Below are positions 209-34,999 of a stretch of DNA of 64,000 bases, in pieces. Each line of letters opens with the position of its first letter. Position 1 is the stretch's first letter. The translations under genes and the position numbers were made by a program. Source of the DNA: Plumapathes pennacea (lineage: Eukaryota > Cnidaria > Anthozoa > Antipatharia > Myriopathidae). The notes under the pieces are model-generated. The model was given only the letters and a program-made list of their open reading frames with translations. It had not been told where the DNA came from and ran no database searches. The stretch is from assembly GCA_964036295.1 (NCBI GenBank), contig OZ038464.1:16174443-16238442 (forward strand). The letters run 5' to 3'.

Positions 209-2887
209 CTGACCAGTCAGAAAAGCTAGGATGTCTCCAGGTCGCTCTTCAAGATGAATTCCCATCACTGTCTCCACAGTGGTCTTCACATAGTCAGCTA
301 CAGGACTGCAGTGTAACAAAATAATATTTAAGAAACATAAAACACGTTCCCGTGTAAATCATATAGCCTCATCCAAACATGCGGGAAGTTCGGAGAACAC
401 GAGAGTGCGTAGGAAAACCACGAGGCCGCCGAGCCCACCATGTGCTCTGTTAAGCTGGTGTTACACTGGTCGATTTGCAATGAAGATTTGCAACATGCAA
501 GTTTTTTAATCGCTTTCAAAAACTTGCAAAGCGTTGCAGCACTGCAAACATCGCGAAAATCGTTCGCAATGGGGTGTTACACCTGAACGATTTTTAGCGC
601 AACATCGTATCGTTGCAAATCGACCAGTGTAACACCACCTTTAGCAGGGGCTACAACTCCTCATTGAAATAAACCGCTGACCAGTACTGTCTGGAGTCTA
701 ACTTTGCGTAAATTGCATTTAGCCTCAATTAAATACAGTCGAGCCCCGCTATTTCGAAGTCCCACGGGACACGAAAAAAAAGTTCGAAATAGCGGGGTTT
801 CGAAATAGCCAATAGTAAATGACTGAAAAAATAAATCCAAGGGGATTCGGCTTGACTTCGAAATTAATCGAGTTTGAAATAGCGAGGTTTGACTGTAATG
901 TCTATGTCTATAAACTTGCAAAAGTTTATGTTGGAGACAGATCCAAAACTAAATAATGTTTCACCTGAGGGTGTAGTTTATCTCAACAGGGTATGTTCGT
1001 CCTTCTACAGAAAGAATCGCTGCTGTGTCCTTTCTACACAGACAAAAAAATATATGATGATCACCACACTGAGAAGCCAGTTAAACAAAAACGCACAGTA
1101 TTTGTCTGGAAAAAAAAAGTAAAGGTTTCCAAATGGGAAGCCATCAAACATTTCATTCAACCCTCCTCCCCAACCCCCCACCCCCCTTCCTTGGCATGAC
1201 TTGTCTCAGGTTGATGCACTTCACCATGTTAAGCCTTGTTTTAAACTCTTGTAGCCATAAAGTAAGGCTAAAATGAACTTGCAGTATGTATACTCTGGTC
1301 TACATTGCTCAAAGCCTTATAATGCTAAGCCTGCATGGGTTAGGTCTAAACCTTTTTGTCGAGTTCAGCCTGAAATTCAGAACGTTCAAAACACGATTTT
1401 CCTAATAATGCCATTTTCGGATGACTGCATGTCCAATATCTCCAAAAAATACATAAATAGCTACACATAGGTTTAAAAGCAATATCATTGGCAACAGAAC
1501 AAAAGCTGCTGTGGAAGTGTCTTGGATAATTTATACAAAGACAGTTTCCATCTAGAAAAAGAGGAGAGCAATCAACAAACTAACCTTGAGTCACCTGTGA
1601 TGTTGGTATTAAAGAACTCTTTGAACATCTGCAAAAAAATTTAGGGTGATGCATGTTGATGTAGCATGACACATGTTGATGTAGGGTGACGCATGTTGAT
1701 GTAGCGTGATGCATGCTGAAGTGCTGTAGGGTGATGCATGTTGATGTAGAGTGGGATGGAGGATGACAAACAAAAGTAACAGATTTGTGTTACCTCTGCA
1801 TCAATAGTTGCAGATGACACAATGACTTTCAAGTCCTTCCTCTTTTTCATAATCTGCAAACATGAACACATAAATGCCTGGATTCAGCTTCTCCATGAGC
1901 AATACAAGGGACACAAAGGAACCATACTCATGTACCAAAGATATGTACAGTACCTTCTTGAGCAAGCCAATAATAATATCAGTGTAGAGTGTCCTCTCAT
2001 GTGCTTCATCAATCATCACTACACTGTGTGCAAGAGAATAAAACAATATTAAAATCAGAAAAGAATTGTAGCCTCACTGTAGGCTAATTAACACATCACC
2101 ATACAAGAACAGTACCTGAACTTATGATAAAGGATACATGTATGTTTTGTCTTTCAGGGTCCAGTTGTTGAAAACACTAATATCTTATGTTAAATAGACT
2201 TTCCTGGATATCATTTTCATGAGTGTTCATGTGGCAAAGCTAGGTGGTTAGTGTGTGAAATATTTTACCAATAAGACCAGTGGATGCTGGAGATCCTGGT
2301 TCCACAAGTAAGAAGGGATTTTCTACTGTCTAAACTCTTACTACACTTAATAGTACACTCAGTCTTTTAGTGGGGACAATAGGCTGTCAATCTAGCAGTG
2401 CAAACCAAAGATCTTGAGATACATGACTGTACATTTACAACAAGGCAGGAGGTTAAATTGACCTGTATTTAGACAGGAGAGGATCACTCATCATTTCCTT
2501 CACCAGTACCCCATCAGTCATGAACTGCAACAGAGAAGATGGATAATGAGTGGATGGCACTGTAGCTGCTCTTATCATAATATTTTCACCCCAGTGCTCG
2601 ACATTAATAATTGCCTGCTATGCCCAGAGGCAACCCAACTATTTGTTCGGGGAGGTAAATTCAGGGCCAGGCAACCAGAAATTATGAAACATCCAATATT
2701 GCTTGAATTCAATCTACAGCTTGAAGGGCAACTAACCTAAAACTTTAATCTTGAGCACTGCACCTACAGATCTATTTCAGTCACATTCATAATTCTTCAA
2801 TCCATTGATTGGTCGAAGATTGTTATCTGACACAGTCATTTGCAAAGTAGATATTATAAAACATATGGAGGACAGAAAGGAGCAAAA

Positions 2888-2921
<34 letters not shown>

Positions 2922-5900
2922 TGGTGGGGGGGGGGGGGGGGGGGGAATTCTCCTGGATGCATCTGAACCCTGACCTGAGAGAGTGAGAAGAGGGGAAAGA
3001 AACAGGTAAAGCATCTTCACAGGTTTTGTCCCAGATTTCATTTATACCATGATTATTCCATATCCTAAGCAGCTCACCTTAATGCAAGTGGTTTTAGGGT
3101 CAAAGCAATTATCGAACCTCACACAATAGCCAATTTCTTGTCCAATAAAGGAGCCCCTTTCTTCTGCAACTCTCATGGCAACCTGACATCAAAGAAATTC
3201 TGTTTTGAAACTGTAAACTTATTTATGATTATTACAGTACATCTTTCAGCTGCATTAAAGGAACTAGGAATTATTTAATTGGATATGAAACATTTAGCCA
3301 TGTCACTCATCTTCTTGATCCTCAACATGGGTTGAGGGTCAACAGGATAACCGACATTTCAGGCTACGAACACCTCTAAGGAGTGAGGACTACCAAATTG
3401 GATTAGGCTCAGTTTTTGTTTAACCCTTTCACTCCCAAGCTCAAAATGCAGATTCTCCCAACCTTTTAAGAGGAAAATGTACGAATGATGAAGTGAGAAT
3501 TGATATCTTAATCAGCTTCTATTTGAGCAATGTATCAAATGCCTAGTTCTCCATACTCTATAATGTACCTCTGGTGAGAGACTGCAAAGAGAAATTTGAA
3601 CTTGATCACTCTTGGGAGTGAAAGGGTTAAAGGGACCCTCTCACCCACAGTCCTTTGTATGCCAAAATCCTTGATCCACCAATAAAAACACTCATAATAT
3701 TCTTCTATTGATTACCTCCATTAAGGGACACCTCCATTCAGGGGACATGTTTCCTTGTCCCAAGGGTGTCCCCTTAAATAATGGAGGTTCCACTGTAGTA
3801 CACATTTAACCATTCTCAACCAGATGGAGGCAGCACTTCACTTTGAGCAAGCATGACATTGTAGTTTTGGTGAAAACCAAGCTTCACTTACTGTTACTGT
3901 AGCAACTCGACGAGGCTGAGTAACACACACCATCTTGTCTGCTGTGGTCCATCCACTCTCATACAGGTACTGCAGTACAGTAATGGTAGAGACACTTATG
4001 TGAGCACTGCTTGAGTTTGAGGGCACTTTTTATTTCACGTATTCACCAGAAAAGCTTGAAAAATCAAATTACCTGTGGAATCTGAAACAGAAAAGAAGGA
4101 ATTAGGCAAGGTTGATTTTAGGTAGAAGATGCTTATAATTATTATTCTAATGTTTGTTATAAGTTATCTTATGTGTACAATGAAATTGAAACTGATCATT
4201 AAAAACCTACAGTACAAGTGTTCACTTCTAAACCAAACATTTCATAGATCTCTGTCAGATTTCAGTATTTATGCCGTCCTTGAATATACTGTGACAGGTA
4301 CTAACAGCAGGATAATAAACATGTGATAATCATACGGTATAACCACATATAATGCTCAGTTCAAAAGGGCTAGGACCTAATAAATTGGTTAAATTCCAAG
4401 AGTTCCTTCAAATCATGATATTATTGTTGTGATGTGTCAAAAGAACAGAATAATAAATTACACTAATCTGGTTTGTAAAATAGGCTGTAAATTAACAATT
4501 ACAGCGCTGTGGCAACCCCACCTGTGTTGACTTGCCACTTCCAGTCTCCCCAACAATAATCACAGTGTCGTACTTCTCCAAGAGGTACAGGATGTTTGTT
4601 CTGTGCTGCAAAATTGAAGAAATCCAGCGGATACAAATCAGCTTTTTTTTTTGTTCGTTCATTCGTTCATTCATCCATTTGTTCATTTCACAATTGAACA
4701 CAAACAACATACTGGTAAGACACACCTAGATTATTTAATCACTACACATCTACAGTAAAACCCAGCTACCTTAAACTCTCAAGGAAAGTGAGAAATAGTT
4801 AGAGATAGTACGGAATCTAGATAGTGGGATTCTACCGAGAGGAAGCAGGAAGTTTGAGCTAACCGAATTCAAGAAAATTGGGTTCTACTGTATATAACAT
4901 TGTTACATGACTTCACATTTTGGATTGGCCAAATGGATTGGCCATTAATCCATTTCACCACTATAAAACTGCCACTAGCCATTGTATTCTTTGTGATTTT
5001 TGCACTGATTTCATAACTGCATAAAATAATGATCAGTTTTCAGTAATATTACTAAATTTAACATTCTCTGTTGATTTATGAAGTCTGTTTGTTTGTTTGT
5101 AGCTTAAATTTGATTTATGCAAACATGTAAACAGAAATCCAAAATTGCCATGGTCTGATGTTTACATTGCTCACTGTCTCCGTTGTAAATTGCAGATATG
5201 AATATTACTGCATGTATGATTTATTTACTGTGTGATAAATAATTTGCACATATTGTACATGTATACTATTTTTACAATAATAAAAGTATTATAACTGTTA
5301 TAAAATTTATGTTACATTACTACTGCACTTCTATCAAACAACTGAATTATTAAATATATTATATTCCATACTAGATTACTCTACTAGCAGAGATTTTGCA
5401 AATGACTTCAACAGTCTTTGCTGAGCATGCATGTGTTGATCTTTTAAACATTTTGATGAGTCAAACCAGACTTTGTCTTCAAACCAGTCATACAAGTCAG
5501 AGTTACCCTGCAAACTAATGACTGCTTTAGTGCCCATGGTGTTCTTTGAAAAGAGGTTTTGACAGGCTTGTTCATATAGGGCTCGCACACGCTCAAATAT
5601 GAGGAAAGTCAAGCTCACTGACAGAGCCTTCTTCTTCCTACACTTTTTGTATTATTAAAGTAGGGAAGATAGTGATTGGGGGTTCTTCTTGCGGGGTAAA
5701 AATAGATCATTTGACTACCACAACTGTAGGTTTTAGTAAATGTTTTACCTTGAAAATTGGCAACTGTTGTCTCTGTACACTGATTGACAGGGAGGCATTT
5801 GGGTTGTACAAAGCAATGTCCGCCTCTCCCTCCCCACCCCGCCTCTCAATCTTGACACTTGTACCAGGTCCTTCTGATCCTAAGATTGTGAAGGCTTAGA

Positions 5901-6437
5901 TTTACATGTTGTATTCAAATATCTGGGTTTTAGTCAGCAGCGGTCAAGGATGACAGCAGCTTTAAAAAGGACACCTCTATACAAAACGGACAGTTAAAGC
6001 TGGTTCCGAGAGTGTCCGTCTTTTAAAGACTAGGCTGCTATAATAAATAACAGCTCACCGTAAGTGAGATATGCAGTTACTAACATATTGCTATTATTTA
6101 TTTTATAAAACACCTGGTCTTTTGCAAGTGGGAAAAAAATCAAGATAAAAAATGTTGGATTTCACACTATTTTTTACACGAACCAATTCGTGCATTCACA
6201 AGTACACTTGTATCGCCTGCAAATCGGTTGGTGTGATATCCGTAGGATTTTACCGACTAAACAATGTAGATGTAGATGAAATATCTCTGTAACCACAAAC
6301 CTCCTCGCACTTCAGAAAAAATAAAACATTTCGCACACCACTTCAATAGTGATGCTACAGAAAAACAAGTCAACAGCACACAGAATCTCACACAAACCTG
6401 GTTTCCAAAATTGAGGCTTCCAGCTGCTGCCCGCCAT
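209..6437 (-). CDS. DHX35: DEAH-box RNA helicase DHX35, N-terminal half (partial, 12 exons)
   Basis: ATP-dependent DEAH-box RNA helicase; the family acts in nuclear pre-mRNA processing. Exons, in coding order: 6398-6437, 5749-5879, 4522-4605, 4073-4081, 3892-3969, 3078-3182, 2463-2524, 1954-2023, 1794-1853, 1585-1628, 965-1033, 209-305. They splice in phase to about 283 codons. The start MAGSSWKPQFWKPG resembles the start of animal DHX35. Motif I (GETGSGKST) is in exon 3, TQPRR in exon 5, the DEAH box in exon 8, the SAT motif in exon 9 and FLTGQ in exon 12. The match to DHX35 continues through exons 11 and 12 (VEGRTYPVE, SPVADYVKTTVETV). The second RecA domain, HA2 and OB regions lie beyond the left edge. 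Exon 4 is only 9 nt (Ile-Pro-Gln). Introns hold several MITEs. I am confident of the family and fairly sure of DHX35 against other DEAH members. Confidence 0.93.
453..640. mobile_element. MITE with TTA target duplication (PIF/Harbinger type)
   Basis: 188 bp bounded by near-perfect inverted repeats (GGTGTTACACTGGTCGATTT on the left, its complement on the right). A TTA direct repeat flanks it at 450-452 and 641-643. A 3-bp TWA duplication is typical of PIF/Harbinger elements. It has no coding capacity and sits in the last DHX35 intron of the window. Confidence 0.75.
736..895. mobile_element. pogo/Tigger-like MITE, intact ends
   Basis: 160-bp element that starts CAGTCGAGCCCCGCTATTTC and ends GAAATAGCGAGGTTTGACTG, with TA on both sides (734-735, 896-897). 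CAGT termini and a TA duplication fit pogo/Tigger derivatives. It lies opposite in orientation to its relative at 9-187. Confidence 0.7.
1647..1750. repeat. 18-bp minisatellite in a DHX35 intron
   Basis: About five imperfect copies of GTGATGCATGTTGATGTA lie 45 bp from the 3' splice side of exon 9. The region has no coding role. Confidence 0.7.
2890..2945. repeat. TG dinucleotide and poly-G run
   Basis: A (TG)n tract of about 30 bp runs into GTGGTGG and then about 19 G. It is a simple repeat in a DHX35 intron. Confidence 0.9.
3420..3630. mobile_element. TTAA-ended MITE, best copy in the window
   Basis: Starts TTAACCCTTTCACTCCCAAG and ends with the complement, CTTGGGAGTGAAAGGGTTAA, so TTAA lies at both outer ends. 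TTAA plus a CCCT terminus is the piggyBac pattern, so I infer a piggyBac-mobilised MITE. This copy serves as reference for the other segments listed. Confidence 0.75.
4753..4890. mobile_element. 138-bp MITE with TA target duplication
   Basis: Ends CAGTAAAACCCAGCTACC and AAAATTGGGTTCTACTG are inverted repeats, and TA flanks both sides (4751-4752, 4891-4892). It is pogo/Tigger-like but a different family from 736-895. Confidence 0.65.
5376..5618 (-). other. Unassigned 80-codon reading frame in DHX35 intron 2
   Basis: An 80-residue frame of ordinary protein composition containing QACQNLFSKN and DLYDWFEDKVWFDSSKC. The frame stays open upstream of the first Met. I recognise no family. It could be a decayed transposon fragment, a retrocopy or chance. 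It is not part of DHX35, whose exons 2 and 3 join in phase without it. Confidence 0.25.
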
Positions 6438-8246
6438 CTTGACAGCAACTAGTGCCAGGGCTGTTGGGCTGCTGCGCGACGAGACCCTGGGACGAATAAG
6501 ACAATTCCCCCACCCCAGTCCCCCTTTATAATCAAAATTTCCACTAAAATCCCAAAAAACAAACTACATTGAAGCATAAAATAGTAGCTACATTCCCTCC
6601 TCAAGGGACAGAAAAAAAAAATTTTTTCACAACTTTTTGTTCTGTGCTATAAATCTAGAGGCCTATTTGTAAATAGATGCCAAACCCCTCCCCCCACAGT
6701 GGTACCAGTCACTGTCTCGTGATGGTCTCATGCAAGGGCTCGTGCATGCTTTGTCTGTGCATTTCCTCCCTGGGGCTGTGAAGGTGACAGCATGGTGAGT
6801 ACAGTCCGTTCGCAATCTGATCCTGTTGTCAAATTCTTAATCATCCACGTACTTTGATGGATGAAAATGTGTGCAAAGAGATCTCTTAGTCAATTTGCAC
6901 TTCATTTAGCACTTTTCTTGTAAAAACAAGAGTATGCCTCGTGACAACCCTTGGGACAATATTGAGATAAATTGGCTTCATTGCAGAATTTCTGTTTATG
7001 AGCAAATACTTTGCTTCTGCATCAGGAATATTGCATCATGCCTGTGGAAACCTTCAAGTTCATTTATAAAATTGAAAGTGCATAGGAAAAACATTCTGAT
7101 CGGGAAGAAACAAAACTAGAAAAAAGTCCGTGAAAAGATTGGTTAGGGTATTAATAGAGTGATTGTGCAGGAAGCATTTTTATCCAGTGACTATAGGTAT
7201 TTTGCTGATTGTTAAAGCAAGGTTCCACGAACGATTTCCTTGGGTTAGTTAAGGAGTATCAGGAGCGGAAATCAGAACAACGCTTTTCAGTCTCCACACC
7301 CCTCCTACACCCCCACGAAAAAAGATCTAAAAGGGCTGTGAAATTTTTAACAATATGCAAGTCTTTCGATTAAAACATATACATAAATTATCCACTTTTA
7401 GGGCACAGTGCGTCCACTAACTTCGTTTAGTAAGTGGAAGCAGCTAGAACTGCAATTAATCCTTTCACTTTCAAGATCAGTCATCAGGTTTAGTGTTTTA
7501 ATTCCCTCCGTCTGTACCATTAGGGTTATATCACAATATTATAGCATGGGAACTTGGCATTTGATAGCTCAAAGGAAAGCTGATTCAACTATCAATTATT
7601 TTTATTACATCACCCATATTTGGAAGTGAAAGGCAGAGTTGCAGAAAATGAAACTGCCAGCATGCATGATTCCATTATTTTACCCTTTCTGTATACTCCT
7701 TGTCCAAAGATGCAATAAATCATTGCAAAGATAATATTTTGTGAAAACAATGAACAAGGAACAATCCACTTCTTCTAGAACCTAACTACATAACACAGAG
7801 ATGCCAACTCTCTTGCTTTGCAGGAGTCTCCCACATGAATGCCTTATCTTGTGCTCACTTGGTCTCCCACATGAATCTGAAAGCTCCAGTGCAAATCTAA
7901 AATCTTCCACTTGGACCAAAAACTATTTTGGTGAATCTTCTTCCTTTTAATAAGTTAAATGCAACAGAAAATTAATGTGCTAAAACGCACAATTTTGGCT
8001 CACAGTGAACTTCACACCCCGGCAACTACAGGGCCACACTGTGTCCCACACCCCCAGCCAAAATTTCCTGCCTGAAATTTTTGGGGGATTGGCTCTCTGC
8101 ATACAGTCAACATACGGTACATACGGTATGGGAAGAGTATAATGAAGGTTAGCACTTCCAGGCTCAATCTAGGCACCAGCCACATAAATTCAGCAATACA
8201 TACTTGTTGTTCATGTTCCTGATTATTCTGTCCACAGTGGAACTAT
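6438..8246. other. Divergent promoter spacer of DHX35 and granulin; possible granulin 5' UTR exon
   Basis: This 1.8-kb spacer separates two divergent start codons. A strong donor (CATG|GTGAGT, after 6794) follows a short GC-richer stretch and could end a non-coding first exon of the granulin gene. A short upstream frame there would not stay in frame with the granulin start. I see no convincing protein gene in the spacer. Confidence 0.4.
7456..7634. mobile_element. TTAA-family MITE, diverged copy
   Basis: TTAATCCTTTCACTTTCAAG at the left and TTGGAAGTGAAAGG at the right match the ends of the 3420-3630 element with substitutions. Confidence 0.55.
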
Positions 8247-11200
8247 ATGCAATTGGCTGTCTTGTTGAGTGTGTGTCTCATCTCAACAGATGCAGCAAAG
8301 TCTGACCAGGTAAGACACAATCAAACCCTCATTCATTACCTAGACTTTTGATTTGCTAATACACTTCTATATGATTTTGCTTTACTTGTGACCTCTAAAT
8401 GCTTGGATATAAACTGAAGGCAAATAGGGGGGAGGGAGGGGGATGGGAGAGGGAGCTCTTTCTGATGAATCAACCTCTTCATTGTACTTTTCCGAATGTT
8501 TCAGTTTCTGTTTCTGTCCTCCCCAGCTGCTCCTATGGTATTCTTCACAATATCACCAAATCATGTATAGCAAATTGTAAAAACAGTGAAAGGCAGCAAA
8601 ATTTACAACACTGCACATATTGTAAACTACATACACCCTGTCTTTTAATACAAAGACACACCACTGCAAACAATGAAATTATTGAGAATATTTAAACAAC
8701 TCCACAATGGTTGAATTTTCACAACCAGTGTCCACTACACTAAAATCATTATCATTCTTGATCCATGTACAATGATAGTATTGGTAAATGTTTTTACCAT
8801 TTTAAAATATGACTAGACCATTCAACACCATACCATGCAATTTTACCAGCTACAATGCGCCACATATTAAATGTACCTGTCAACTCTCACTCTCTTTCCG
8901 TGAGACTCGTCCTTTTGTGAAAAAGGACATCTTGCGCTCTAAAGTCAAAGACGTGGAATCTCCGTGCTGGAATAGTCACACCTTAGTCATGATTTCACAG
9001 TTCAGGAATCTAAAGTTTTACACTGTCAAATTGACCAGTCATGGCAATGAAAGGTATTTTTTTATTATTGCAGTGTTGTATCCAGGATTTCAAAACTGGG
9101 GGTCCTTTGGACCCCCTCTTCCAAAATTTAGGGGTCCAAGTAGGATTTTGTGGGGTCCAACTAATTAATATTCATTTTTAATATTAATATTCGTGGCGCG
9201 TCATTATTTACATTGTTTATTTTTGTACCAAACAAATAACAAGCCGATAGGACATTTTTTATGTTCCTGCCACATTTTGTTCTCTTTTGAGGAGGTTTTC
9301 GGCTAATGTATTTTATTGACGTCCGCCATACGCACAAAACATATTTATGCAAATCTGAACTCAATTCTTTGGGTTATCAAATTTCACCACGCTACGCGAA
9401 AAATTGACAGCTTGATTTTCAGTCGATGTGCAAGACTACAGGTCAATGTTTTAAGATTTGTATGCAGACAGATTTCGACCGTTTGACTTAAAAGCGGTGT
9501 CATCGTGATCGATAAAAGGTGTGCGCGTCGCGATAAACTGAGCCGCTCGAACAGCCAGTGGTTTACAGTAACATTTGATCGAATATTTGTTCAGTCACAC
9601 TCGCATTCCAGGATTTAACCCTTAGAAGCTTTCCCTTAGAGCTTTCCTTTTCGTTGCAATGCTTGACTGGTCCTTTCACCTTAAGTATATTGTCCTTTTA
9701 TACTATCTACGACTTTCACGGAATGCAGCTGGCCCAGTACTAAACGGCCGCTATGGCGATGAAATCACTCTGACAAGGACGAATTCATTTGCAATATTTT
9801 CACCACGGGTGCAAGGAGGAAAGTGGTAGGTGCAAAAGCTCAGGAAGAGAAAAACTATTGAACTGCAAAGTCTAAAAATTTGTAGCTTAACTTTTGCTTC
9901 TGCGTCTTAACTTTTTTAAAAAACTCCGCTGGAAGCTGTGTTTCGCCACACAATTAAAAGATACAAAGGGATTCAGTGGAGCGTACACCCGCGCCAGTTT
10001 CCGCGGGAAAAAGCTTGCCTGCGCGTGTCACCCGGAATCAAAACACCCGGAACAATGCATGTATCGGTAATGAATATTCACAACTGCTGCCAGAGGGTCC
10101 CCTTGGGAACGGAGGGCCAGTATTCTTTTGTTTAAGTGTACGCAGCGCTTACCACAAATGCAAGCAAATATCTCGGAAACAAGCCCAAAATCTGAAAAAC
10201 AAAATACAGGGACATTTTATTTACATAAGTATCAATCAGTATGCGAAATTACAGCGCATTTTGGCCAAAGTTAAATTTCGGAAAAAAATGATCACATGGA
10301 TCGTTTTTGCCGGAGGCTCTTCAATTGTACTACTTTTTTCGTGTCGTATGCGACAGAAAACCAAATCACGGAGTGATTTTTTATTCGTGTCCTAAGCGAA
10401 AGTTGCAACGCATAAATTGGGCTTTGCCGACGCGCTATCAGTGGTGAAGGATCAGCGTCGGCTTTCCGCTTAGTGGGTCACGTTCTGAAAAGAGTCTCTT
10501 GTCAATTAATTTTTCGAGTGCGTCCAAGCGGACGCACTTGCTGGAATTTTTGCGTCCAAATTGAGATTTGTGCGTCCCAGGACGCAATGACGCGCTCTGG
10601 ATACAACACTGTTATTGTACCAATCTTCCTACAATTCCCCAGAACCTAGATCTGGTTAAGTGCTCTCTAACTGTTGCCTGCCCAACCGGCTACACCTGCT
10701 GTCCAAAAGATGACAACACATTTCTCTGCTGTCCTCATCCACAAGGAGTCTGCTGCAACGACAAAGCCCACTGTTGCCCACGAGGTTACAAATGCTCCGA
10801 AAACAGCACATCATGTTACAGTGGAGATGAGACCTTCCCCTCACCGCTAGTCCATCAACCAATACTACAACAACAACCTACTGAATCGTTGCCTTCACCT
10901 CAAGCTGTAGTTTGCCCTGATGGAAAATCTGAATGCCCCAGTGGAAATACATGCTGTAAACTATCCTCTGGACAATATGGCTGCTGTCCTTTACCCAATG
11001 CAGTATGCTGTAGTGATGGTGTACATTGCTGTCCCAATGGATACACATGTGATGTCTCCAAAGGAACCTGCACTAAAGGAGATGTCCAAATTCCAGTGAT
11101 GGCCAAAGTAGTTGCAAAAACCCTTCCAAAGAATGTGGTTTGCCCTGATGAAGAATCCCAATGCCCAGATGGAAATACATGCTGTAAACTATCCTCTGGA

Positions 11201-14200
11201 CAATATGGCTGCTGTCCGTTACCCAATGCAGTGTGCTGTAGTGATGGTGTACATTGCTGTCCCAGTGGATACACATGTGATGTCTCCAAAGGAACCTGCT
11301 CTAAAGGAGATGTCCAAGTTCCAATGATGGCCAAAGTAGTTGCAAAAATCCCTGCAAAGAATGTGGTTTGCCCTGATGGAGAATCTGAATGCCCCAGTGG
11401 AAATACATGCTGTAAACTATCCTCTGGACAATATGGCTGCTGTCCGTTACCCAATGCAGTGTGCTGTAGTGATGGTGTACATTGCTGTCCCAATGGATAC
11501 ACATGTGATGTCTCCGCAGGAACCTGCTCTAAAGGAGATGTCCAAGTTCCAATGGTGGCCAAAGTTGTTGCAAAAACCCCTGCAAAGAATGTGGTTTGCC
11601 CTGATGGAGAATCTCAATGCCCAGATGGAAATACATGCTGTAAACTATCCTCTGGACAATATGGTTGCTGTCCGTTACCCAACGCAGTGTGCTGTAGTGA
11701 TGGTGTACATTGCTGTCCCAATGGATACACATGTGATGTCTCTGCAGGAACCTGCTCTAAAGGAGATGTCCAAGTTCCAATGGTGGCCAAAGTAGTTGCA
11801 AAAACCCCTGCAAAGAATGTGGTTTGCCCTGATGGAGAATCTGAATGCCCCAGTGGAAATACATGCTGTAAACTATCCTCTGGACAATATGGTTGCTGTC
11901 CGTTACCCAATGCAGTGTGCTGTAGTGATGGTGTACATTGCTGTCCCAATGGATACACATGTGATGTCTCCGCAGGAACCTGCTCTAAAGGAGATGTCCA
12001 AATTCCAATGATGGCCAAAGTAGTTGCTAAAACCCCTGCAAGGAATGTGGTTTGCCCTGATGGACAATCCCAATGCCCAGATGGAAATACATGCTGTAAA
12101 CTATCCTCTGGACAATATGGCTGCTGTCCTTTACCCAACGCAGTGTGCTGTAGTGATGGTGTACATTGCTGTCCCAATGGATACACATGTGATGTCTCCG
12201 CAGGAACCTGCTCTAAAGGAGATGTCCAAGTTCCAATGGTGGCCAAAGTAGTTGCAAAAACCCCTGCAAAGAATGTGGTTTGCCCTGATGGAGAATCTGA
12301 ATGCCCCAGTGGAAATACATGCTGTAAACTATCCTCTGGACAATATGGTTGCTGTCCTTTTCCCAATGCAGTATGCTGTAGTGATGGTGTACATTGCTGT
12401 CCCAATGGATACACATGTGATGTCTCCGCAGGAACCTGCTCTAAAGGAGATGTCCAAATTCCAATGATGGCCAAAGTAGTTGCAAAAACCCTTCCAAAGA
12501 ATGTGGTTTGCCCTGATGAAGAATCCCAATGCCCAGATGGAAATACATGCTGTAAACTATCCTCTGGACAATATGGTTGCTGTCCGTTACCCAATGCAGT
12601 GTGCTGTAGTGATGGTGTACATTGCTGTCCCAATGGATACACATGTGATGTCTCCGCAGGAACCTGCTCTAAAGGAGATGTCAAAATTCCAATGGTGGCC
12701 AAAGTAGCTGCAAAAACCTTTGCAAAGAATGTGGTTTGCCCTGATGGAGAATCTGAATGCCCCAGTGGAAATACATGCTGTAAACTATCCTCTGGACAAT
12801 ATGGTTGCTGTCCGTTACCCAATGCAGTGTGCTGTAGTGATGGTGTACATTGCTGTCCCAATGGATACACATGTGATGTCTCCGCAGGAACCTGCTCTAA
12901 AGGAGATGTCAAAATTCCAATGGTGGCCAAAGTAGCTGCAAAAACCTTTGCAAAGAATGTGGTTTGCCCTGATGGAGAATCTGAATGCCCCAGTGGAAAT
13001 ACATGCTGTAAACTATCCTCTGGACAATATGGTTGCTGTCCTTTACCCAATGCAGTGTGCTGTAGTGATGGTGTACATTGCTGTCCCAATGGATACACAT
13101 GTGATGTCTCTGCAGGAACCTGCTCTAAAGGAGATGTCCAAGTTCCAATGGTGGCCAAAGTAGTTGCAAAAACCCCTGCAAAGAATGTGGTTTGCCCTGA
13201 TGGAGAATCTGAATGCCCCAGTGGAAATACATGCTGTAAACTATCCTCTGGACAATATGGTTGCTGTCCGTTACCCAATGCAGTGTGCTGTAGTGATGGT
13301 GTACATTGCTGTCCCAATGGATACACATGTGATGTCTCCGCAGGAACCTGCTCTAAAGGAGATGTCCAAATTCCAATGATGGCCAAAGTAGTTGCTAAAA
13401 CCCCTGCAAGGAATGTGGTTTGCCCTGATGGACAATCCCAATGCCCAGATGGAAATACATGCTGTAAACTATCCTCTGGACAATATGGCTGCTGTCCTTT
13501 ACCCAACGCAGTGTGCTGTAGTGATGGTGTACATTGCTGTCCCAATGGATACACATGTGATGTCTCCGCAGGAACCTGCTCTAAAGGAGATGTCCAAGTT
13601 CCAATGGTGGCCAAAGTAGTTGCAAAAACCCCTGCAAAGAATGTGGTTTGCCCTGATGGAGAATCTGAATGCCCCAGTGGAAATACATGCTGTAAACTAT
13701 CCTCTGGACAATATGGTTGCTGTCCTTTTCCCAATGCAGTATGCTGTAGTGATGGTGTACATTGCTGTCCCAATGGATACACATGTGATGTCTCCGCAGG
13801 AACCTGCTCTAAAGGAGATGTCAAAATTCCAATGGTGGCCAAAGTAGCTGCAAAAACCTTTGCAAAGAATGTGGTTTGCCCTGATGGAGAATCTGAATGC
13901 CCCAGTGGAAATACATGCTGTAAACTATCCTCTGGACAATATGGTTGCTGTCCGTTACCCAATGCAGTGTGCTGTAGTGATGGTGTACATTGCTGTCCCA
14001 ATGGATACACATGTGATGTCTCCGCAGGAACCTGCTCTAAAGGAGATGTCAAAATTCCAATGGTGGCCAAAGTAGCTGCAAAAACCTTTGCAAAGAATGT
14101 GGTTTGCCCTGATGGAGAATCTGAATGCCCCAGTGGAAATACATGCTGTAAACTATCCTCTGGACAATATGGTTGCTGTCCTTTACCCAATGCAGTGTGC

Positions 14201-16809
14201 TGTAGTGATGGTGTACATTGCTGTCCCAATGGATACACATGTGATGTCTCTGCAGGAACCTGCTCTAAAGGAGATGTCCAAATTCCAATGGTGGCCAAAG
14301 TAGTTGCAAAAACCCCTGCAAGGAATGTGGTTTGCCCTGATGGAAAATCTGAATGCCCAGATGGAAATACATGCTGCAAACTATCCTCTGGACAATATGG
14401 TTGCTGTCCGTTACCCAATGCAGTGTGCTGTAGTGATGGTGAACATTGCTGTCCCAATGGATACACATGTGATGTCTCCGCAGGAACCTGCTCTAAAGGA
14501 GATGTCCAAGTTCCAATGGTGGCCAAAGTAGTTGCAAAAACCCCTGCAAAGAATGTGGTTTGCCCTGATGGAGAATCTGAATGCCCCAGTGGAAATACAT
14601 GCTGTAAACTATCCTCTGGACAATATGGTTGCTGTCCTTTACCCAATGCAGTGTGCTGTAGTGATGGTGTGCATTGCTGTCCCAATGGATACACATGTGA
14701 TGTCTCTGCAGGAACCTGCTCTAAAGGAGATGTCAAAATTCCAATGGTGGCTAAAGTAGCTGCAAAAACCCCTGCAAAGAATGTGGTTTGCCCTGATGGA
14801 AAATCTGAATGCCCAGATGGAAATACATGCTGTAAACTATCCTCTGGACAATATGGTTGTTGTCCTTTACCCAGTGCAGTGTGCTGTAGTGATGGTGTAC
14901 ATTGTTGTCCCAGTGGATACACATGTGATGTCTCCGCAGGAACCTGCTCTAAAGGAGATGTCCAAGTTCCAATGGTGGCTAAAGTAGCTGCAAAAACCCC
15001 TGCAAAGGATGTAATTTGCCCTGATAAAAAGAGTAAATGTGAAGATGGAAGTACGTGCTGTAAACTATCCTCTGGTGAATATGGCTGCTGTCCTTTACCC
15101 AGTGCAGTTTGTTGCACTGATGGCAAACATTGCTGCCCCAATGGTTACACGTGTGATCTTAAACAGGGTGAGTTTTTCTCTCATTTGTGTATCTACACTG
15201 TAGTGTATGCAGTAATAAGCTAAGAACCAATAATGCAGCTTGTGTGTGCATGTCAGTCAAGGCTCTTTACCAAACCCCCACTTAGATTTCACACTGAATA
15301 AATCAATTGAAAGAAGTGCATTAAATATTTTAGTACTTCCCTTGATAACCCTTTCACTCCCAAGAGTGAGCAACTTTAATTTTCTCTTCTCAGTCTCCCA
15401 CCAGAGATATATAGTATGGAGAATTTGGCATTTGATACCTTGCTCAAGTGACAGCTGATTAAAACATAAATTCTCTTTTTATCACTCATACATTTTCTTA
15501 TTTGATGGTTAAGAGAATTTGTATTTTGAGCTTGGGAGTTAAAGGGATAAGTAATGTTATGGGAACTCAGGAATAAGTGTGAGATGCAACTGACGTTTTG
15601 CTGAAGAATGGACCAACACAGCTGAATGTTCACAAAAGCTCAGAAAATTGAACTTGCAACTGTTTTTCCTCAACTTCTTGCAGGTACATGTTTGAGGGGT
15701 GTCAGGCATTTGGAATTCACTCCTCTGTTGAGACAAGGTACTGAAACTGTATACTGACAACAACATACAACTATTTTGAGTAATAATGCCGAATGCCGTG
15801 CCTCAGATTTACTGATTAATTTTGCTTCAACAACTTTTGGACTGAAATTGCACTCAAAACCATGTGATTACCTATACAAAATGGTAAGTTAACACCATTG
15901 AAAGTGATGTGACATTTTGTGAACACATTGTACACATTTTGGCATACTAACTAATGAAAATTATTACAAAGTGTGTCACTATTAGAACTATACAAATGGC
16001 TTACATTCTGTTGTTGTTTATGAGCAAATGTTGCACATTACAAAAATAAGTGACCATCTGGCCATGACTTGGGAAAAAAATAAAAAAGCACCCCCCCCCC
16101 CTCCCCCACCTTTTTCTAAATATGAAACAAGGGCCCAGGGCACTCATTCAAGGATTTATTGTAAACATGTGTACTGTATTTGAAACCAGTAGCCATTTAG
16201 TCCAGCTTGAAAATGTGTATCCAAACTGCAGTCTTCTTGATCCCAGGTGAAGTGGGTGTTAAAAATGTAGTGTGTCCAGATCAGTCAGAGTGCTTGGACT
16301 ATGAAACCTGCTGCCCGGTAACAGGAGGCGGCTATGGCTGCTGCCCTCTCCCTCAAGCTGTTTGCTGCTCTGACTTAGAACACTGCTGTCCCAGTGGTTA
16401 CAGATGTGAGTTAAGTTCAGAAACTTGCGTTGTAGGAAGCAAGACAATCCCTATGTTGAGCAAACACAAGGCAATTCCTGCACGCATCATCCACTCAGAT
16501 GGTAAAGCCAAGGTGGAGAAGAAGCTGCGTGTGGTAAACCTGGAGGAGAAGTTGAGGTTTGTGCCAAAATTCCATAAAGAAAGCAGCTCATCTTGCAGTG
16601 GCAACCAAGCCGGGTGCAGCACCTTCCATACCTGTTGCACACTCCCCTTGGGAGGTCACCATTGTTGCCCTCTGCCAATGGCTTCCTGCTGTTCCGATGG
16701 TTTGCACTGCTGCCCCCAGGGCTTTAGTTGTGACGCAAAGGACGGCAAGTGCAGGAAGGGAGATGAAGCCATTCCCATGATTCACTCGGGTGCTGATGTC
16801 CAAGCCTGA
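8247..16809 (+). CDS. Granulin precursor with 22 granulin domains
   Basis: Secreted granulin/progranulin-type protein. Exons: 8247-8309 (start and signal peptide, MQLAVLLSVCLIS then a small-residue cleavage area), 10643-15167, 15684-15737 and 16247-16809. Phases agree and the total is 1,735 codons. Each domain shows the 12-cysteine granulin pattern with four CC pairs. There is one divergent N-terminal domain, 19 tandem 76-residue units, and two divergent C-terminal domains in the last exon. Array units are separated by a hydrophobic/basic linker of the type VPMVAKVVAKTPAKN, a plausible processing site. Vertebrate progranulin has seven and a half domains, with each domain split across two exons; here 20 start in one exon. 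Growth-factor-like or lysosomal roles are known for the family; the role here is unknown. The signal-peptide exon is inferred from a good AG/GT pair and phase 0. Confidence 0.92.
10907..15167 (+). repeat. 228-bp tandem array of 19 granulin units
   Basis: Unit starts (Val-Val-Cys-Pro-Asp codons) recur every 228 bp from 10907 to 15011, in frame and with no length change. Neighbouring units differ at only a few sites; unit 19 is the most diverged and loses its last cysteine segment to the next exon. Shared variants show larger duplications. Units 5-7 match 11-13 (1,368 bp apart) and units 8-9 match 13-14 (1,140 bp apart). Confidence 0.95.
15345..15550. mobile_element. TTAA-family MITE in a granulin intron
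   Basis: TAACCCTTTCACTCCCAAGA at the left and GAGCTTGGGAGTTAAAGGGA at the right match the 3420-3630 family. It lies between the array exon and the 54-nt exon. Confidence 0.7.
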
Positions 16810-23734: not shown

Positions 23735-24183
23735 GACAAACACTGTACAGTACGTGAACCTGAACGTCCGCTAAATACTACTTCATGTAAGGCTTTTTGG
23801 TAACCAGGCCTTCTAAAACTTGTAACCGCGCCTTGAATGCTTTTGGCGGGAATTCGAATTGAAGGCAAAGTGTAAAAGAGGGGGAAAAAGGTTAGTTTGA
23901 AATTTTGCGTTGTCCAATAGAATTAGACTGACTGGCAGAGACTTCATTCCTCAAAACAACATGGCGGGGACAGGCATGCGTCGTTTTTGACATGCCTTGC
24001 ACGTGAAATTTTGTTTTCAATCGATTTGTTTTTAGCGCGGGCTTTTCTCTAGTCGTCCGTGCGATGATGCGCAAATTTAGATGTTTCTCGCATCGCCGAT
24101 GACGGGCTTGTGAATGGTTGTGATGGTTTATATCCAAGTGATCAAGTGCATAGTTTTCTCCTTGAATTGAGCCCAGCAGAAAC
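23735..24183. promoter_or_regulatory. Short bidirectional promoter region
   Basis: Only 449 bp separate the divergent ATG codons of the LisH/WD40 gene (23734) and the kinase gene (24184). Both genes must draw promoter function from this stretch or share it. It holds no TATA box that I can defend and no other gene. Confidence 0.55.
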
Positions 24184-26785
24184 ATGTTTCGGAGTTCGCT
24201 ATTAAGGCATGCCTATCGATCTCGTTTCGTATCTTTCCGTCTGCAATTATTTTATACTGTAGTGGCGAGAAACGGAATTATGATCGGAGGCAAACAAGCA
24301 AGAAGGGTGGCCCTTTCCACAGTGTCGCTGAACCACGGGAATCGCTCCTTCACGTCACAGTCAGGGAAAATCGTTATTCTCGAAGGCAACATCGGAGCTG
24401 GGAAAACCACGCTTGCTTGTCAGTTAGCAAGGCAGCTCGACTATCGGCTGTTCCTCGAACCAACCACGAAGAACCCGTACCTGGCGAAGTTCTACGAAGA
24501 CCCTAATAAATACGCGTTGAAACTCCAGCTCTGGATCTTCAAGCAGCGCTTTCGAACATTCGTAGAAGCCACCAAGCATTTGCTAGAGACAGGGCAGGGA
24601 GTGTTGCTTGACCGATCAGTTTTCAGTGACACTGTGTTTGCCGATGCTAACTTTCAACAAGGGACCATCTCCTCACAAGGTGAGCATACTTTCCCTCTCT
24701 CCAATTTCTTGCCATACAACGGGTTTGAACAATTGAACATGGCGATCATATCCACTACATCCTTTTTTCCGTATACAGACTTCCTTGATTAGTATAGCGA
24801 TATTATCATTGTTTGCAAACATTTCTTTTACCAACCCTTAAACAAAAGAACAGTTAACAGCCTCCCTTCCAGTCCCCCACCCCACCCCCCCCCCCCCCCC
24901 CCCCCCCCCCCCACCATAACACCATAAATGTTCCCATCCCCCTTGGTACAGATGGTGACTGCAGGAATTGATCAATGCATAAGTGCTATATTTTCGTCTG
25001 TGTTTGATATGTGCAGGTTACAGCTATTATGGTCAACTGAAGGAACAAGTGCTGAAAGCCGTACTAGTACCTCATGTTACACTGTTTATCGATGCGTCAC
25101 CCCAGAAGTGCCATGCGAGAATTCATGGCAGGGGAAGGGTGAGTTATGCCAAATTTATCCAGTATATCTTCAGTATTGTGGCAGGTAGTAATAAATAAAA
25201 TAATAAGCAATAAGTAAATTATTATCATTTAATTTTCTAAAAAACTGTACCTTTTAGGACTTTGAGAGTGGTATACCACTGCAGTATTTACAGGCCCTTG
25301 ATGCAGCATACAGAACATTTCTACAGAACATGAGGTGGGTGAAGAAACACAAACAAGAACACCAACTTTTGGCTATTGATTTATGTACTGTAAAATATCA
25401 ACTATAAAATAGAAAATAAATATCAACTGTAAAATAGAAACACTATTGTGAAAATGTCTTCAATTCTACTGTACCTCGTGTTGGAGCATAAAATGTTTAG
25501 ATATTGGTAAAACGTTCTTTCTTCTTACTGTATGCTGACTTGTCCCAGAAATTGAATTGGTACTGCAGTAAACCTAGACGTTAACTGTCAATCATCTTCC
25601 TTCCAAGAAAAATTGGATCAAATGTCATGGTGTATGACTGGAGTGACTTTGGATACAAACACGAGGTAATGTGAGGGGTAACTATGTTGGATTAAAATTG
25701 TTGTTGTTTACTATTGTGGTTTAGCTGTTGTTTTATTGCCATTGCTCAAGGACAGTTTCTGAATTTATTTAGGGGAATTTTGTAGGGAAAGAAAATTGTG
25801 TAAAGAAGGATAGGATACATGCTTTGCAGTGGTTAGAATAGGCACTCGAAGGAGCATCTGGTAAAAAATAATGAGGAGTACTGTATGAGCATGATGTTAG
25901 CCTGATAATGCAAGGCTCTTACTTCTTCTATTCCACAGGTGGCTCGAGATATCAGGACTGCAACCACACTTACTTGGGACCAGGATGTTGTGAAGAAGTT
26001 CAAAACATTGTAAGCCTCACTAGCATGACAGTAAATAAACTATAAACCATCTGGGCATCATATTACGTTATTACATAAAAATTTTCCCAAAGCATGTATT
26101 ATGTGGTTTTGGGTGGTTCATTTTTCACAACATTTTAATTTTGCGATTTTTATCTTACATGTAGGTCACTTTCATTTTGATAAATTTTAAGTTCTTAATT
26201 TGGCAACAAGTTAAATTCGTTTTTTATTTTTTTATTTTTTTCATAACTGCAAAATTAAGTGTTGCAAAAATTTCATGTAATACTTAGGTATTTACTGGTA
26301 AATATTTTAGCTGTAATGAGCCGTTGGTTGATTACCTTTGTTTGCTCGTCTTAGGATTAGCAGCAGCTCATTGGTGGATCAAACTCTGACTCTCAGCTAT
26401 ACCATACCTGAAGCTGCCATCAGTGAAGATGAAAATGAGGTCAGTCACTCTACACACAAAGGGTGCATTCCAAAACAGTTTATCTGTTAACCCAATTCTT
26501 GGCTCAAACAACTGTAGGTCGGATATCAGTAACTACAACAGCTCATGTTATAGTACCCTTCTCTCAACAATTTTCTTGTGAGCTTTGATTATGAAATGCA
26601 GTATTACATTAGTGACAGACACAGAGATAACATTCTATGCGGTGACCATTTTTCAACAGGGGGATGACCTACTGGAACCTGACAAAGAAAATCACCAACA
26701 CACATGTAGGAACTTGACAAAGAAACGTAACTGCAAACTACATGTAGCAAACAGCCAAGAACCAATTACAGTCACAGATGGTTGA
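24184..26785 (+). CDS. Deoxynucleoside kinase family protein, mitochondrial-type
   Basis: Deoxynucleoside salvage kinase family (dNK/dGK/TK2, also NDUFA10). Exons: 24184-24679, 25017-25138, 25258-25334, 25608-25665, 25939-26009, 26355-26439, 26660-26785; phases agree and give 344 residues. The first 55 or so residues are rich in Arg and Ser and lack acids, fitting a mitochondrial presequence. The P-loop GNIGAGKTT is intact, as are the DRS motif (LLDRSVFSD) and a lid-like RIHGRGR. NPYLAKFYEDPNKYAL and the following LQLWIFKQRF resemble bacterial dAK/dGK more than the W/Q-containing region of animal TK2 and DGUOK. TGQGV and FSD-VF are shared with NDUFA10, whose P-loop is broken. The last 40 residues are a low-similarity tail. 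Likely an active kinase; substrate unknown. Confidence 0.85.
24885..24912. repeat. Poly-C run in kinase intron 1
   Basis: An uninterrupted run of about 28 C within a longer C-rich stretch. Confidence 0.9.
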
Positions 26786-29080: not shown

Positions 29081-32000
29081 TCACGTGGGCACGTTGGTTC
29101 CTTGGTTAACAGTTGTTTCTGACATTTTACGTTTACGTTTCTTCTTCTTTTTACTTCTTTTAACAACAATATCGTGGATTTCCTGCGCAGGCTTAACGTA
29201 TTCTTCTGGAAGCCATGCAGTTTTCACATTGTCTGACTCTTTTAAGCAATCGTCCTCTATCGACCCAGACTCCTGGGATGTGTTATCGGGCAGCACGTAG
29301 GGAGAAGTCTCGACAGGAGCAAAAACCTGTGGAGTTGTTGCACTTTGAGGAGTTTCGTCTGCAGCAAAAAAATAAAAACAGTTGGTTTATTATTATAGAG
29401 CGGTTTTCGGATGACTGTCGACGGTAATCATGTGAGTTGGCTACGTTTTCGGATTTGTCCAAACAAGTTTAGCAGCATTCTTGACCAATGAGGAGCAAAA
29501 GGAAACCTGATTGGAATATTTCTCGTAACAAGAAACGTTAGTTTGGTTTCTTCTTGAAGGCAAAACCAAACGCAAGTTACTTTAATTGGCTTCTGATTAA
29601 TTGAAAGTGTCCCTTAGTCTCCGGCTGTGATTGGCGGTGTACTTACTTTTTGCTGTCATCCGAAAATGGCTCTACGCATTGTCCTTACTGTTACACTGAT
29701 TTCTTTTTCTTTAAGTCAAAGCCCAATAAAGTTAATTTCAAAGAAAACATCCAATCAAAAGAGCGCGTAAGGCAAGTTTTCCACCACATACGAGCAATTT
29801 ACTTCGGACCCCTACAGTGTGGTGTCTACACTGAAGATAGGGGACAGCAACACAACCAGTGGCATATCGTTAAATTGCGACAATTAGTTTTGCCGCTTTG
29901 TTTGTAAAGGAGCATGTCGATGATAAGGAGATCTAATACAGATAAATTTTAGTAGTTTATGCAATCTGCCAGCGTGTCTAATATTCGCGAATTTCGTGGA
30001 TTTTCCAACGATTCCGCGAAAACTCGATCCCGTAAAAATAAACTCCTGCGAAGAAAAAATTCGCGAAAATTTACTCCATTTATTTGGATTACCAAATTTC
30101 AATTAAACTGACTGCAAATCATATTTCGACCTTCTTCGATAGGACCTTGCCCGAGATCCGTCAAAATGTTTCCCAGAAGTAGCCGAAATCTAAACAATTC
30201 GCGAAATTTGTTCCCGCACAACGCCCAAAAAATCGGCAATCCGCGAAATTAAACTCCTGCGAAAATTTCATGTCACACGGTATGCAACAATGACAAGCCT
30301 TCGAAAATTAGTTCAAGCTCGCACTTTAGTTCTTTTGTCCAAGCACTGACCTGAGGGAGGTTCGCTGAATATGGACGGTACAGACAGGCGCCACTCGTTG
30401 CCCAGGTGCGAGCACACAGTCCCCACGTCCGACTCCAAGTCGGAAGTTGCACTCGTGTCTCCGGTAAAGTTCGGCAGTGGAACATTAAGCAAAGGCGAGG
30501 GCGGCACAGAATCCAGGTCACTGAAATACGAAGTCCCGGATGTGCGCCGAAGAGAGATGCTGGGTACTCGTAGTTGATTGACAGGCATAGATTCTGAGCA
30601 CTCCGTTGCGCTGGAGACTGGTCCTAGATCGCTGTTTGCGCATGAGCTGTAGGAACTTAGTCCCTGGACCGCGCTGCTCATGGTTGCATCTTTGTTGAAC
30701 TGGAACTCCTTGATCTTTGGCACTGTTTTCAAGTTCCTTGCTACACCGTTTGGCCCTATACAAAATTGAGCATTTTGAGATTTCATGTATTCAGGCGTTT
30801 GTCCACCTTCATAGTATTGACTCTTGGTTTCTTGTTGTCTTTTTCACCCCTCACGTACGTATCAACCACTCAAGTTTGAATAAAAACCGGTTAAGACTGA
30901 ATAGGAACAGGTTCAGATTGAATAGGAACAGGTTCAGACTGGATAAGAACAGGTTAAAACGGAATAAGAACACGTTAAGACGGAATAAGAACAGGATAAG
31001 GCTGAATAAGAACAAGTTAAGACTAAATAAGAACAGATTAAGACTGAATAAGAACAAGTTAAGACTGAATAAAAGCAAGTTAAGACTGAATAAGAACAAG
31101 TTAAGACTAAATAAGAACAAGTTAAGACTGAATAAGAACAAGTTAAGACTGAATAAAAACAAGTTAAGACTAAATAAGAACAAGTTAAGACTGAATAAGA
31201 ACAGGTTAAGTCTGAATAAGAACAAGTTAAGACTAAATAAGAACAAGTTAAGACTGAATAAGAACAAGTTAAGACTGAATAAGAACAGGTTAAGACTAAA
31301 TAAGAACAAGTTAAGACTGAATAAGAACAAGTTAAATCTAAATAAGAACAGGTTAAGACTGAATAAGAACAAGTTAAGACTGAATAAGAACAAGTTAAGA
31401 CTGAATAAGAACAAGTTAAGACTGATTAAGAACAAGTTAAGACTGAATAAGAACAAGTTAAGACTGATTAAGAACAAGTTAAGACTAAATAAGAACAAGT
31501 TAAGAATGAATAAGAACAAGTTAGGACCGAATAAGAACAAATTAAAACGGAATAAGAACAGGCACGCATTCAAGGAACAGGTAAAGCGGACTGGATAATA
31601 CCAATAACTTGGCATGTTGCTAGGGCGCTCACAGTTTAGCTGAATGGCGAAATGTGCAGATCAAGGAAATAAAAGATGATATTATAAAAAATGTGTTCTG
31701 TCGTCCAACCATTTTTGTCAGGGATTGCCCGTCGTACCTGTGTGGATCCTTCTAGCGTTTGCTCTGAACCGTGACACGGCGATAACGGCCAAACTTAACT
31801 CGCGGAGATTTGCTGTTCTGAGATCTGACGGGTCCTTTTGGTCTTTATATGCAAAAAATACGTAAATAAATAAATAAATAAATAAATAACTACATAAATA
31901 AAAGATGGTACTATATAGATAGTTCACACAAATGGCAGCAACAGCCGTACCAGTGTCACCGGTTACAATTAGGAGAGATTACATGTATATAAGCACAGGT

Positions 32001-34863: not shown

Positions 34864-34999
34864 GTTAATAGCGCTGTTTTATGACTTGTCTGTCAACGTA
34901 TCTTATTCATAGAGGCAAAGTCCTCTTTTCTGTTTATGTCGGGGAAGGTGTTTTTCTCTTGTACAAACAGAATGCAAATGTAGTAGTTAAGATCCAGCG

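Follow-up and report, generated by a model that had tools for sequence, protein, structure and literature searches.

The closest described systems to the gene analyzed here are the progranulin genes of several metazoans that contain runs of near-identical granulin modules. According to the parts of the paper by Palfree et al. (2015, PMC4527844) considered here, such runs are found in Aplysia (11 identical modules of 13), Nematostella, Crassostrea, Strongylocentrotus and Branchiostoma. The amphioxus Branchiostoma reaches up to 31 repeated granulin modules. In sea urchin and amphioxus the near-identical run lies inside a single large exon (section 15 of the paper); Table 2 of the same paper marks the exact exon number of the amphioxus gene as uncertain. 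Single-exon multi-granulin genes are also described there for choanoflagellates, and human GRN is listed with 7.5 granulin modules. Among the open-licence papers listed, judged by title and start of abstract, no other one on near-identical granulin arrays was found. One further paper (PMC6355014) concerns, in its excerpt considered here, a dinoflagellate protease and was set aside as not relevant. Among cnidarians, the soft coral Xenia has a granulin gene, Granulin 1, that has been presented as a marker of alga-containing cells; its authors mention homologues in Exaiptasia and in corals, both stony and soft (PMC7332420, in part).

The window, i.e. the whole analyzed stretch of 64,000 nucleotides from the antipatharian Plumapathes pennacea, very probably harbours a progranulin-type gene, a chain of granulin domains including an array that has been shaped by exchange between its units. 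A model with four coding exons was predicted from splice signals and reading frame (Table 1). It comprises 5,205 bp and encodes 1,734 residues without inner stops. A one-base shift of the donor site that ends the array exon destroys the frame. The original prediction gave the stretch 10907-15167; the exon is predicted to begin at 10643 rather than at 10907, and it holds an N-terminal granulin domain. The predicted small exon contributes the final cysteine to the 19th unit. The spliced model thus encodes 22 complete 12-cysteine domains (one N-terminal, 18 in the array, the 19th and two C-terminal), and 20 domains begin within the one predicted main exon. The 22 domains represent 13 distinct protein sequences, the commonest of which occurs eight times.

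Table 1 Features of the granulin gene (window positions; a slash marks the exon border in splice signals)
Feature	Position	Strand	Remarks
Predicted first coding exon	8247..8309	+	Candidate signal peptide MQLAVLLSVCLISTDAAKSDQ (hydrophobic leader, called by eye); donor CAG/gtaaga; from sequence and frame
Predicted main exon, 4,525 bp	10643..15167	+	N-terminal granulin domain, 18 array units and most of the 19th; acceptor ccccag/AAC, donor AAACAGG/gtgagt
Diverged N-terminal granulin domain and linker	10643..10906	+	12 Cys; PF00396 E 2.8e-12 on 10652-10906
Array, 18 units of 228 bp	10907..15010	+	76 codons per unit, granulin domain and linker
Diverged 19th unit, cut by an intron	15011..15167	+	PF00396 E 1.2e-17 on 15011-15169
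Predicted small exon, 54 bp	15684..15737	+	Finishes 19th granulin domain, frame kept; acceptor cttcttgcag/GTAC, donor GACAAG/gtactg
Predicted last exon	16247..16809	+	Two diverged C-terminal granulin domains and stop codon; PF00396 E 3.7e-27, 2 stretches, in frame 16201-16806
771-bp exact repeat	11684..12454	+	Second copy 13052-13822, offset 1,368 bp (6 units) downstream
540-bp exact repeat	12602..13141	+	Second copy 13742-14281, offset 1,140 bp (5 units) downstream

Pfam profiles and solved structures identify the domains as granulins, which bears out the predicted 22-domain granulin. The profile PF00396 is defined by a 12-cysteine pattern with four CC pairs and has a gathering cut-off of 20.9 bits. 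All four pieces of the gene that were scanned, three of them from the main exon, exceeded this cut-off (E 2.8e-12 to 3.7e-27); among them, unit 1 represented the 18 array units. Granulin was the sole Pfam domain in these four pieces, in agreement with the granulin-only chain of progranulins, and the peptidase domain of the granulin-tailed plant-type cysteine proteases was absent from them. Searching solved structures with the N-terminal domain and unit 1 returned six distinct sequences at E up to 0.01, all named granulin, among which Granulin A, Granulin-5, Granulin-2 and zebrafish AaE. Five AlphaFold2 models of two units were built from 8 sequences, with a mean pLDDT of 84.6 for the best and 69.4 for the worst model and a pTM of 0.46. 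The top four Foldseek matches of the two-unit model were granulins; its matches numbered 146 (E up to 10), none of them below 0.001. The only good superposition was on zebrafish AaE, with a TM by target length of 0.77; on the same scale three human granulins reached 0.32-0.40. All six frames of the window (stop-free stretches of at least 15 residues, E up to 10) were also scanned with a profile built from the 22 domains. The profile matched two frames only, with 20 and 2 domains (at least 15 domains being listed individually); both belong to the gene, and further granulin domains in the window are thereby ruled out. No relatives of unit 1 were found in viral_contigs (one stretch with a pattern), and a search of genome_contigs with an alignment of 11 window pieces yielded 43 stretches and no relatives.

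Several other features were observed in the surroundings of the gene. Predicted intron 1 contains a 1,541-bp element (9071-10611) that is likely a DNA transposon, with perfect 15-bp terminal inverted repeats (CAGTGTTGTATCCAG) and TTATTG on either flank (by eye). The element ends 31 bp upstream of the acceptor of the array exon, and its terminal inverted repeat pair is absent from the output of a general search for repeats in the region. On the minus strand, at about 1800-6440, lie what appear to be exons of a DEAH-box RNA helicase, in head-to-head orientation to the granulin gene. A piece of 46 residues (3862-3999, minus strand) matched DEAH-box helicases, with DHX35 as best match (E 4.6e-06); the remaining pieces were spotted by eye in translation. 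Downstream of the granulin gene a deoxynucleoside kinase frame is present on the plus strand (24166-24789, PF01712 E 2.6e-25). The minus strand carries a rhodopsin-type receptor in a single open frame (33931-34878, PF00001 E 1.8e-30) and a SWIRM-associated region (46220-46612, PF16495 E 3.3e-17), the latter being the sole match in 10 further frames scanned. Two short tandem repeats, of 21 bp (30877-31560, 32.6 copies) and of 15 bp (48869-49158, 19.3 copies), have open frames on both strands.

The array itself is highly regular. Tandem Repeats Finder reported a period of 228 at 10906-15157, with 18.6 copies, 95 % matches and 0 % indels, and the open frame spanning the array has 1,552 codons. 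A frame of 1,176 codons (11614-15144) is open on the minus strand as well. It was rejected as a second gene and regarded as a by-product of the repeat unit, because the 228-bp unit has one stop-free antisense frame and its length is a multiple of three. Originally 19 units of exactly 228 bp had been proposed. Eighteen full units of this length are indeed present, but the 19th, which starts in register at 15011, is diverged and has a coding part of 157 bp only, followed by the donor site. It differs from the 18 full units at 33-37 positions over its first 153 bp. The full units are near-identical in DNA, as had been claimed: their 153 pairs show 0 to 21 differences per 228 bases, with a mean of 10.65 (95.3 % identity). 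The 18 units comprise 15 different DNA sequences, with units 5 and 11, 6 and 12, and 9 and 14 forming identical pairs. Protein identity to unit 3 is 71 % for the 19th unit, 42 % for the N-terminal domain, and 58 and 44 % for the C-terminal domains; near-identical modules thus lie between diverged end modules, as in the run-bearing progranulins. Within the array, units 1 (15.2), 2 (14.4) and 18 (14.5) diverge most from the other units. There is a weak trend of divergence towards the array edges (Spearman -0.41, p 0.09; one-sided permutation 0.043).

The distribution of differences among the units suggests how the array has changed. Besides the two long exact repeats (Table 1), several units are exact composites of others. 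Unit 13 is an exact hybrid of unit 7 followed by unit 8 (equally 9 or 14), with a breakpoint between bases 99 and 180. Unit 10 is an exact hybrid of unit 15 followed by unit 4, with a breakpoint between bases 93 and 183; units 6 or 12 fit equally well as second parent, with the first possible breakpoint later. Altogether, nine of the 18 units reproduce others exactly, six as plain copies and three (units 8, 10 and 13) as one-crossover mosaics, compared to a mean of 0.005 and a maximum of 1 in 200 column shuffles. As these shuffles break the linkage within units, the excess indicates linkage rather than one special mechanism. Starting from 13 units, one in-register duplication of six units and one in-register loss of a single unit yield all 18 units with zero substitutions. 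This reconstruction, run with 7/8 and 15/4 as hybrid parents, is exact for 7,462 breakpoint pairs. Furthermore, the mean difference between units is lowest at a lag of six units (6.58 compared to 10.65 in shuffles; none of 5,000 as low), a signal that takes in the duplicated block itself. Lags 4 (p 0.007) and 2 (p 0.03) likewise gave differences smaller than average, these being raw p values with 14 lags tested.

These data support the recent expansion that had been proposed for the array. Of the two mechanisms then left side by side, gene conversion and unequal exchange, the pattern in the sequence favours recent unequal crossing-over of multi-unit blocks over scattered gene conversion. Unequal crossing-over between 228-bp units paired in register very probably keeps the 18 units in the single exon alike. 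Since 228 bp divides evenly into codons and the frame is the same at both ends, such an exchange adds or removes a whole domain with its linker and leaves the protein unbroken. The last large change may have been a duplication of six units, after which one unit was lost from the new copy, with the hybrids fitting other parents as well.

Other explanations for the likeness of the units have to be weighed, and the probabilities given to them and to the main explanation overlap and are not meant to total one. Maintenance by short-tract gene conversion as the principal process would agree with the exact one-crossover mosaics seen in the non-identical units 8, 10 and 13. The strongest signal, however, is a contiguous block at a constant offset of six and then five units, which amounts to a change in unit number, and conversion as the main process is regarded as quite unlikely. 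Selection at the protein level could in principle keep the units alike with no need of recent exchange, in agreement with the pN/pS of 0.31 for the domain. It would not be expected to act in the same way on silent sites, which are nearly identical as well (pS 0.07 over whole units), nor to yield three unit pairs that are identical in DNA, and it is hardly credible as the whole explanation.

More weight is given to the possibility that the block does not exist in the genome. Units 11-15 may have been introduced during assembly, either as units 5-10 copied a second time or as their other haplotype, and the true gene would then have about 13 full units. Copying accounts for the block exactly, and since it carries no substitution, it would look the same if the assembler had duplicated it falsely; the two exact repeats, 771 and 540 bp long, point in the same direction. 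On the other hand, 15 different sequences are present among the 18 units, and the units outside the block alone already make a long array. The in-register joint that yields the hybrid unit 10 resembles real unequal exchange, and an in-register misjoin could produce it too. We consider an assembly fault unlikely, if less so than the explanations above, and the 6-unit event is somewhat more probably a real feature of the genome.

Over all unit pairs, the whole unit had a pN/pS of 0.56, the 12-cysteine domain 0.31 and the linker 1.82. Judged from these values the domain looks constrained and the linker looser. Counted by site, 11 silent and 12 replacement variants are found in the domain and 4 and 12, respectively, in the linker, a contrast that is not significant (Fisher p 0.19). 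The linker pN/pS above 1 was rejected as proof of positive selection, given the common ancestry of the units and the lack of significance by site.

Human progranulin is cut in its linkers by several lysosomal proteases, and in three linkers asparagine endopeptidase cuts after Asn (PMC8330050, in part). Of the 20 domain starts in the coral protein that match the pattern used, 18 have Asn directly before the motif V-V/I-C; two of the 22 domains lie outside the pattern. None of the 18 full units has a dibasic site; all three such sites of the predicted protein lie further on. On these two grounds asparagine endopeptidase is, by analogy, a candidate for the linker-cutting enzyme, and the Asn site is a candidate only, because Asn is present inside the granulin domains as well. 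By comparison with known progranulins, the protein may be secreted or directed to the lysosome, and cutting of the linkers would release single or multiple granulins; many near-identical copies would then provide dose rather than diversity. Domain number may vary between individuals, and equal peptides may be released from the array. One may speculate that the exon is a device for adjusting dose, in which in-register unequal exchange varies the number of equal modules in the population while all share the same linker cutting site. We regard this as improbable; if true, the number of identical granulin peptides per molecule would differ between individuals, with possible effects on immunity or alga hosting.

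What this locus adds is a candidate exact history of an array, which a false assembly duplication could mimic. One sequence would suffice to read the last steps in the growth of a domain array: six units duplicated and one unit lost, each time in register and with the frame kept. If confirmed, the locus would be a handy marker for exchange rates and for variation in domain number in a growth-factor-like protein.

Compared to the known systems, the coral gene resembles mammalian progranulin in its granulin domains arranged in a chain with linkers, and solved human granulins match it by sequence. It differs in that the domains of vertebrate GRN are split by introns, whereas in the present gene a single predicted exon holds the start of 20 domains. 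The original prediction had drawn this contrast between an intron-free array and vertebrate GRN, and it stands, but single-exon arrays had already been published (PMC4527844, in part). As near-identical runs within one exon are known from the same paper (Palfree et al. 2015), the gene is a good new example and not a new kind of gene. With Xenia Granulin 1 it shares being a cnidarian granulin gene, a link drawn from the published description that serves as a lead only. The likeness to the run-bearing progranulins of metazoans, compared by their description and not by DNA, lies in the chain of 12-cysteine modules with a near-identical run. No exchange reconstruction of this kind was found in the paper as covered here; the readable history of six-unit exchange belongs to the present array.
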